From Lactiplantibacillus mudanjiangensis (GTDB taxonomy: Bacteria > Bacillota > Bacilli > Lactobacillales > Lactobacillaceae): DNA of 64,000 nt. The notes below the pieces were generated by a model. The model searched no databases. It was not told where the DNA came from and saw only the letters and a list, made by a program, of their open reading frames with translations. Shown here one piece after another: positions 49,196 to 62,706 of the stretch. Position 1 is the stretch's first letter. Every line of letters begins with the position of its first letter. The stretch covers positions 434,001 to 498,000 of the forward strand of contig NZ_BJDY01000002.1 of NCBI RefSeq assembly GCF_005405385.1, given 5' to 3'. The translations under genes and the position numbers were made by a program.

Positions 49196-49792
49196 GTGGC
49201 TGAACATCGCTGGGGTAAAGAACTGGATACGGTCATTTTAACGGTAACATGGGACCTACTAGCCGAGGTCGGCTATGCCAAACTCACCATGAGTGCGATC
49301 GCTAAAGTGGCTCATACAAATAAAAATGCGATTTATCGCCGCTGGCCTAATAAAGCAGCCTTAGTTTTATCGACGATTCAGCAACAAGCGCCCGCCATTG
49401 TGGTGACCGCACCGAACACCGGTGATTTAAAAACCGACCTGATAACCTTGTTTAGTCGGTTCACCCCGTTACTAGCGACCGTTGATGCAACCATTTGGCA
49501 ACAACTATTACCAGAAGCCCTGTTAACCATGCCAAATGAAGCTGGTGTGAGTGGCTTACTGGTTGCCATCAACGGCGATAATCTGATTACCACTGCAGTG
49601 ACCACGATTCTAGACCATGCTAAAGCTCGGCATGACCCATTGCGGCCAACGATTACTGACGACCAACGACAACTACCCGCATTATTATTGATTAACCAAA
49701 TTATGTTGACCGGGAGTTTGCCTAGTGACAAAATTGATGAACTTGTGACGCATATGCTGCTACCGCTTTATTTACAAACAACTAAAGGTTGA
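49196..49792 (+). CDS. TetR family regulator, 3' end altered by a mobile element
   Basis: 198 residues from GTG 49196 (GGGGTG at 8 bp). Helix-turn-helix at about 12-56 (VILTVTWDLLAEVGYAKLTMSAIAKVAHTNKNAIYRRWPNKAAL). It is third in the operon with the BcrA-like ABC pair and is the probable repressor of the GGTAC-type dyads. The last codons and the TGA stop come from the left terminal repeat of the inserted element at 49782; without it the frame would read QTT and stop at TAA. Confidence 0.88.
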   Translation: MAEHRWGKELDTVILTVTWDLLAEVGYAKLTMSAIAKVAHTNKNAIYRRWPNKAALVLSTIQQQAPAIVVTAPNTGDLKTDLITLFSRFTPLLATVDATIWQQLLPEALLTMPNEAGVSGLLVAINGDNLITTAVTTILDHAKARHDPLRPTITDDQRQLPALLLINQIMLTGSLPSDKIDELVTHMLLPLYLQTTKG

Positions 49793-50322
49793 AAGTTAAG
49801 TATGACGGTAAAAGCTTTACTAGAATTGACTTAAGTCATGCTAAATTGATCACCTACGCCAGCCAGCGATTCTGCCTGCTGTGGGGACCGGTTCCAGCCA
49901 AAGTGCGGGCTTCCACCTCGCTTTTGAGCCTAGCACAAACCGTTAGTCTCAAAAGTCGTCCACATCGTAAAGTCCGGAAAAATCGTCCGGACTAACGATG
50001 TCTTCACGGCCGGCGCCATCACTGGCTGACTTCGGTTAGTTTGTTATGTCAATTTAGCGATCGCTACTATAACCGAGAGTGAGTCCACATTGAGCCCAGC
50101 CGTGGGAGGCCCTTAGCGATTTATCGCTTAGAGCCTAACGTTTTTGAAACACGGTTTTGGTGGCTCAAAACGACGGTTCAGACCGCCTTTTGGCTGAACC
50201 GGTCCACCCACAGCGTTCCGGCTCAAAGTGGGCGAACGGTAGGTGGCAAGTATGACCAATTTTGATCAATGAATGCTTATCATATCAACGATTATTGCTA
50301 AAAAGTAGCTTTCAACCTTTAG
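49782..50322. mobile_element. MITE-like non-coding element, long copy (541 bp)
   Basis: Bounded by 14-bp perfect terminal inverted repeats CTAAAGGTTGAAAG (49782-49795) and its complement (50309-50322), and flanked by an 8-bp target duplication ACAAACAA (49774-49781 and 50323-50330). There is no coding frame; GC is higher than the flanks, and it is rich in hairpins, for example GTCCGG with CCGGAC near 49970-49993 and CTTTTGAG with CTCAAAAG near 49920-49950. It is homologous in inverted orientation to the element at 62414, but carries about 250 bp extra in the middle (roughly 49960-50210). It lies between the TetR stop and the TetR terminator. Confidence 0.88.
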
Positions 50323-50333
50323 ACAAACAACCT

Positions 50334-50382
50334 AAAATAAGGATTGACTGATCAATAGCTGACCAGTCAATCCTTATTTTTC
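50334..50382. terminator. Bidirectional terminator, originally of the TetR gene
   Basis: AAAATAAGGATTGACTG (50334-50350) pairs perfectly with 50364-50380. It now lies 540 bp beyond the TetR stop because of the insertion, and it also serves the converging NAD(P)-binding gene. Confidence 0.88.
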
Positions 50383-62413: not shown

Positions 62414-62706
62414 CTAAAGGTTGAAAGCTACTTTTTAGCAATAATCGTTGACATGATAAGCATTCATCGATCAAAACTAGTCATACTTGCCACCTGCCGT
62501 TCGCCCACATTGAGCCGGAACGCTGTGGACGACTTTTGAGACTAGCGGTTTTATCTAGGCTCAAAAGCGAGGTGGAAGCCCGCACTTTGGCTGGAACCGG
62601 TCCCCACAGCCGGCAGAATCACTGACTGGCGTAGGTGACAAATTTAATCCAACTTAAGTCAATGTTGGTAAGGTTTCGACCAATACATTTAACTTTCAAC
62701 CTTTAG
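62414..62706. mobile_element. MITE-like non-coding element, short copy (293 bp)
   Basis: Terminal inverted repeats CTAAAGGTTGAAAG (62414-62427) and complement (62693-62706). Flanks CTAACATT (62406-62413) and CTAACATC (62707-62714) are an 8-bp target duplication with one mismatch. It matches the 49.8-kb element in reverse orientation over both ends (about 80 bp each) and the central hairpin module, but lacks the extra 250 bp. No open frame. It again separates a TetR stop codon from its terminator. Confidence 0.88.

Follow-up and report, generated by a model that had tools for sequence, protein, structure and literature searches.

Within the 64-kb stretch of DNA that was analysed as a whole (hereafter the window), a 541-bp MITE occupies positions 49782..50322 on the + strand. 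It is bounded by a left TIR, CTAAAGGTTGAAAG (49782..49795, +), and by its perfect 14-bp partner, CTAAAGGTTGAAAG on the - strand (50309..50322), and is flanked by an exact 8-bp target-site duplication, ACAAACAA, which carries no strand (49774..49781 on the left, 50323..50330 on the right). This much had been described in a sequence-only reading of the locus, and it is exact to the letter. The claim that the element has no coding capacity holds as well: its longest listed ORF is 68 aa, and a transposase of its own is absent. Between the TIRs lie two structured units recognised by a covariance model, R1. Unit A is at 49857..50027 on the + strand (119 bits, and itself a member of the 17-sequence training set), and unit B is inverted, with its 5’ end outward, at 50089..50231 on the - strand (61.6 bits, E 2.6e-15, and outside the training set). 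These two inverted units replace a candidate description of the interior as one long palindrome.

The stop codon of a TetR-like ORF (49196-49792) falls inside the left TIR, giving the protein the C-terminus LQTTKG. By our reading, the ORF would end in LQTT without the MITE, and the insertion would have added two codons before the stop. On the other side, the MITE stands in front of a terminator-like hairpin (50334..50380), an inverted repeat outside the element that is listed without a strand and is terminator-like on the - strand. A second, shorter relative had been reported 12 kb away, and a TIR search finds it at 62414..62706 on the - strand: 293 bp with the same TIRs, a single reversed unit (62479..62631, -, 72.7 bits by R1), and flanks CTAACATT and CTAACATC that are alike in 7 of 8 letters. 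The four exact TIRs of the window are thus two pairs, and at up to two mismatches the window holds five TIRs where shuffles predict 0.79.

The element is one of many. Counted at up to one mismatch, the TIR occurs 132 times in the genome that contains the window, 63 times forward and 69 times reverse, while a reversed-pattern control gives none in either direction. BLAST with the element finds at least 41 places, 40 of them long (405-556 bp, 83-100% identity to the window copy) and one of only 30 bp, a count that is a lower bound since scoring covered 40 of the 227 first-look candidates. Thirty loci of this genome were inspected for duplications, and 27 of them allowed both ends to be located; exact target duplications flank 20 of these (ten of 8 bp, eight of 7 bp and two of 9 bp), against 3 of 702 when left and right flanks of different copies are mixed, and the duplicated letters are 78% A+T. 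An exact duplication is absent from the other seven, as it is from 6 of 12 copies in the sister genome G001. The 27 aligned copies have a mean pairwise identity of 71.6% and range from 50.4 to 95.4%, which speaks to an old and uneven MITE family. These numbers agree with the earlier suggestion of a non-autonomous, TIR-bounded, multicopy element.

A search of related genomes for the same ends, proposed in the sequence-only reading, finds the exact TIR in 12 of 21 genomes of the genus, that of the window included. In G001, the 12 exact-TIR pairs examined all span 336-544 bp, share a mean identity of 95.8% among themselves, and carry exact 7-9 bp duplications in 6 of 12 cases compared to 0 of 132 flank mixtures. 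Nine of them hold two units and three hold one. The consensus from the window’s genome has no BLAST match at 1e-5 in any of these 12 copies. The MITEs of the two genomes are alike in ends, size and architecture and different in sequence. No empty site was found when the flanks of both window copies were searched in 20 sister genomes: the left flank (578 bp) matched in 3 of 20 only over stretches of 48-75 bp, 513 bp flanking the short copy matched in 0 of 20, and these genomes thus offer no usable orthologue of the flanks in which an empty site could be shown.

The same reading had recognised no insertion-sequence family with these termini, and here it has to be corrected. Its own proposal of searching for a transposase with the same ends leads to IS4-type elements in three sister genomes, with ends at 0 or 1 mismatch: 1565 bp in G004 (Lactiplantibacillus dongliensis), 1567 bp in G001 and 1559 bp in G012. 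The exact 7-bp duplications ATAGGAG and GACTTTA flank the IS of G001 and G012, respectively; on the short contig of G004 a matching duplication was not found. In G004 the two TIRs enclose an open transposase frame of 451 aa, counted from the first ATG, and the frame is also open in G001 (457 aa), while it is in pieces in G012, G013 and G017. A transposase match of any kind occurs in 7 of 21 genomes of the genus. The window’s own genome has only remnants, covering residues 1-51 and 422-451, and present movement there would therefore need a foreign copy. A truncated IS4-type remnant of this genome (locus L045, G000:C2, ~537758-538130) joins the first 51 to the last 30 transposase residues and keeps one TIR end.

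The transposase scores 481.6 bits against the NCBIfam model ‘IS4 family transposase’ NF049925 (IS4_4; cut-off 250), contains the Pfam domains DDE_5 and DDE_Tnp_1, and carries the motif Y-(2)-R-(3)-E-(6)-K as YGRRWQIECYFKVAK and, in a second instance, YARRWQIEGYFKIAK. The table of the ISPepr1 subgroup in PMC2266710 gives ends of the form YT-AA-YTT---A, a size of 1500-1600 bp and duplications of 7-8 bp. As far as that table goes, the partner’s 1559-1567 bp and its 7-bp duplications (two of three elements) lie within the subgroup ranges, and the TIR agrees at seven of the eight named end positions, with G at position 7 where the table has Y. Judged on sequence features, then, the partner agrees with the ISPepr1 subgroup of the IS4 family in size and duplication length, and its ends do so in most positions. 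Largely similar ends, an autonomous partner of the right size, duplications of 7-8 bp, the YREK motif and AT-rich targets are the points of likeness to that subgroup as set out in PMC2266710, whereas the MITE differs from it at end position 7 and by encoding no transposase.

Shared ends, a matching duplication length, repeated copies and an intact-looking transposase in sister genomes all support mobilization of the MITE in trans, which had been suggested and is very probable. We infer that this transposase moved this MITE. In such a scheme, an IS4-family transposase would bind the 14-bp ends, excise the MITE and insert it at AT-rich sites with a 7-9 bp duplication, and a new insertion would often come to lie directly behind a stop codon. 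The sequence that MITE and partner IS have in common is limited to roughly the outer 14-18 bp, and the MITE thus did not arise from these IS simply by losing their interior. Presumably the MITE took up a pair of units, or TIRs were added to such a pair. We hold with considerable confidence the joint interpretation that the MITE is mobilized in trans by an ISPepr1-subgroup IS4-family transposase and that its filling is a covarying pair of units drawn from a wider repeat family.

Bacterial MITEs are comparable in being non-coding, in having TIRs, target duplications and repeated copies, and in sharing their ends with an autonomous partner. At 541 bp the present element is larger than the 70-300 bp given for bacterial MITEs in PMC3733652, and where remains of an IS might be looked for it contains two structured units, inverted to each other and conserved as a pair. 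The interior is therefore not arbitrary filler. The earlier label of an uncharacterised element holds insofar as we found no paper describing it in a literature search that had subscription journals largely outside it; it fails for the termini, which are those of a known IS group, and it missed the structured units of the interior. A very numerous repeat, apparently undescribed and present in a bacterium of food and gut, is now tied to a known group of transposases, making mobilization in trans directly testable.

The interior of the MITE consists of two cloverleaf-like units of ~160 nt, inverted to each other with their 5’ ends pointing outward, and all 30 of the 30 MITE loci of the window’s genome contain both A and B. 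The unit model has 160 positions and 53 pairs in four helices. In a MAFFT alignment of 17 units from several species, made without structure, double changes occur in 41 of the 53 pairs, and among 124 distinct model-aligned units they occur in 52 of 53, with 92.0% of cells paired versus 64.6% after shuffling and at most 45.0% after sliding. Alignments A3, A4 and A5 consist of hand-chosen loci fitted to the model, and such alignments lean to structure. Among the A units of the window’s genome (59 rows, two of them duplicates) we count 227 double Watson-Crick cells and 152 single changes, with 38 expected after shuffling. Once duplicate loci are dropped, 105 of 110 adjacent distinct unit pairs are inverted with 5’ ends outward: 45 of 45 in the window’s genome, 31 of 35 in other species of the genus, and 29 of 30 in other genera.

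The units reach well beyond the MITE. A first hint came from repeats that match the element core and occur in 9 of 20 sister genomes, including G005, which has no exact TIR. With the covariance model, units are found in 19 of the 21 genomes of the genus, from 14 to at least 140 per genome, and only G018 and G019 have none; the window’s genome has at least 150, a lower bound from 150 scored of 649 candidates. In a family-wide scan, where 14 candidates per genome were scored under stricter filters, at least 45 of 201 Lactobacillaceae genomes and at least 11 of 40 genera carry units. Since presence differs between genera, gain and loss of units can be followed.

A TIR with at most two mismatches lies near 72 of 96 units in the window’s genome. 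For other species of the genus the count is 21 of 45, for G005 it is 1 of 45, and for units that the model fetched from other genera it is 0 of 77, where allowing up to three mismatches again gives 0 of 77; duplicate loci were dropped from these counts too, and a decoy TIR gives 0, 2, 0 and 0 in the same four groups. The lack of TIRs near these model-fetched units indicates that the unit family reaches beyond the MITE. Among loci fetched by the TIR pattern, a sample biased by the way of fetching, TIRs lie near units in 15 of 22, including loci of Companilactobacillus huachuanensis and Levilactobacillus yonginensis. A few of the G005 copies (loci L186-L210) have the flanks TTAGCAGTTGG and AAGTATATGAA in common, possibly the sign of ends that differ from the IS4-type TIR.

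What, then, maintains the pairing? If a single RNA strand were selected, G-U pairs should be tolerated and A-C mismatches should not. In the unit helices of the model alignment G-U and A-C occur 180 and 210 times, in the MAFFT alignment, which is not fitted to structure, 38 and 35 times, and in alignment A5 of other genera 65 and 98 times, whereas 23 distinct tRNAs from the same loci, a small control sample, have 25 G-U and no A-C. The near-equal frequency of the two in the units suggests that the folds are preserved as DNA or on both strands. We suggest that the pairing is maintained copy by copy and without strand preference, most likely because the unit pairs are kept complementary at the DNA level (as hairpins or cruciforms whose arms correct each other) or in RNA transcribed from both strands, and this is the weakest step of our argument. 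Counted against upkeep at the DNA level are the structure-leaning alignments, the small tRNA control, single helices that are lopsided both ways (G-U to A-C is 6 to 50 in P3 and 28 to 8 in Pb), and the lack of a significant difference when units are split by the direction of the neighbouring gene (163:102 sense, 95:81 antisense, p 0.14, a few loci having entered twice). Pairing kept by double changes in which G-U is not favored over A-C raises the question of whether DNA hairpins, and not RNA, are what is maintained.

A possible explanation, though one we would not put at even chances, is that the MITE is an old palindrome, hence its inverted order, and that the covariation is a passive and functionless outcome of quasi-palindrome correction by template switching. 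The element as a whole folds far above shuffles (z -12.3 and -11.3), and states specific to single copies show an excess of double Watson-Crick changes over slid controls, 23 versus 3-10 in the A units and 14 versus 1-6 in the B units of the window’s genome. Copy-specific single changes to G-U and to A-C are also alike, at 17 versus 12 in the A units and 12 versus 10 in the B units. Correction alone leaves unexplained why certain letters in P2 and next to the junctions do not vary, and also why units are spread so widely over genera.

Somewhat doubtful in our view is the proposal that the units are functional RNAs of 3’ untranslated regions, acting in messenger stability, RNase III processing or termination, with RNA selection keeping their folds. 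The strong covariation would suit this, and so would the position of the copies behind genes. With ORFs called mechanically, the 30 loci of the window’s genome have 13 convergent, 16 tandem and 1 divergent pair of neighbours, and in 19 of 30 an ORF either terminates no more than 10 bp from the element or extends into it at its 3’ end. Among the 46 window gaps of at least 50 bp, 10 are convergent, 25 tandem and 11 divergent, making divergent sites nominally rarer for the element (p 0.022), while the excess of convergent sites is not significant (p 0.073). This position could equally reflect insertion where it does little harm. Moreover, G-U is no commoner than A-C, unlike in the tRNAs, and inverted pairing means that one unit of each pair is always antisense. 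Rfam has no family over its gathering score in the window (0 matches), and at E up to 1 the region of the element gives only sub-threshold matches, to the neighbouring terminator hairpin and to the MITE end. The Rfam RNAs of Lactobacillales, which according to the pertinent part of PMC2864571 include Lacto-rpoB and Lacto-usp, resemble the units in being intergenic structures with covariation in lactobacilli, and differ in that none of these families reaches threshold here.

The inverted arrangement invites comparison with REPINs and REP elements, which, in the accounts drawn on here (PMC3116915, PMC3733652), are likewise inverted doublets that are extragenic, lie mainly behind genes and fold back. 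The present units of ~160 nt with four helices contrast with the 20-40 bp palindromes described there, and the presence of a Y1 transposase does not follow them, so that the paired units are a REPIN-like architecture with much larger units and no sign of a common Y1 driver. That the pairs form a REPIN-like system which a Y1 (RAYT-type) transposase moves in single-stranded form, with IS4-type ends added later in some lineages, would suit the inversion of adjacent pairs, the absence of TIRs near model-fetched units of other genera, and the hairpins in ssDNA or mRNA predicted for REPINs in PMC3116915, but it is improbable given that Y1_Tnp (PF01797) matches occur in 20 of 45 unit-bearing genomes and 38 of 156 others without tracking the units, that G019 has seven matches and no units while G004 and G009 carry units although PF01797 is unmatched in both, and that the single match of the window’s genome holds a stop codon. 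PF01797 covers IS200/IS605 as well, making this a blunt test; a RAYT as the common driver of the units is not supported by it.

Beyond the trans-mobilized MITE itself, we entertain only tentatively the broader idea that the inverted cloverleaf pair represents a class of structured mobile DNA that is old and independent within Lactobacillaceae. Such a class would be kept folded at the DNA level and would spread by a route of its own, with the IS4-type TIRs seen in Lactiplantibacillus as one of several vehicles. In plasmid and phage collections, from which records of this or near genomes may have been left out, the element has no match at 1e-5. The TIR 17-mer occurs in 14 stretches of the viral collection, and the exact unit motif in none of that collection. 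Among the matches listed for GTDB genomes the 17-mer is found in unrelated organisms too, and alone it proves nothing.

In L. dongliensis the partner IS interrupts an ABC-transporter-like ORF (locus L031, G004:C61), and a further palindromic repeat of related look adjoins it in the first 300 bases of locus L033. Several contigs of this genome start ~61 bp inside the IS, as expected for a recent amplification that breaks the assembly. In the plasmid collection the transposase has matches in 212 records, the best at 97.1% over 91% and in two pieces, and L. plantarum plasmids carry fragments of the IS, with no intact full-length copy seen there. At loci L333, L334 and L335 on such plasmids the fragments are unannotated in the gene table and lie next to a flippase gene or nadC.
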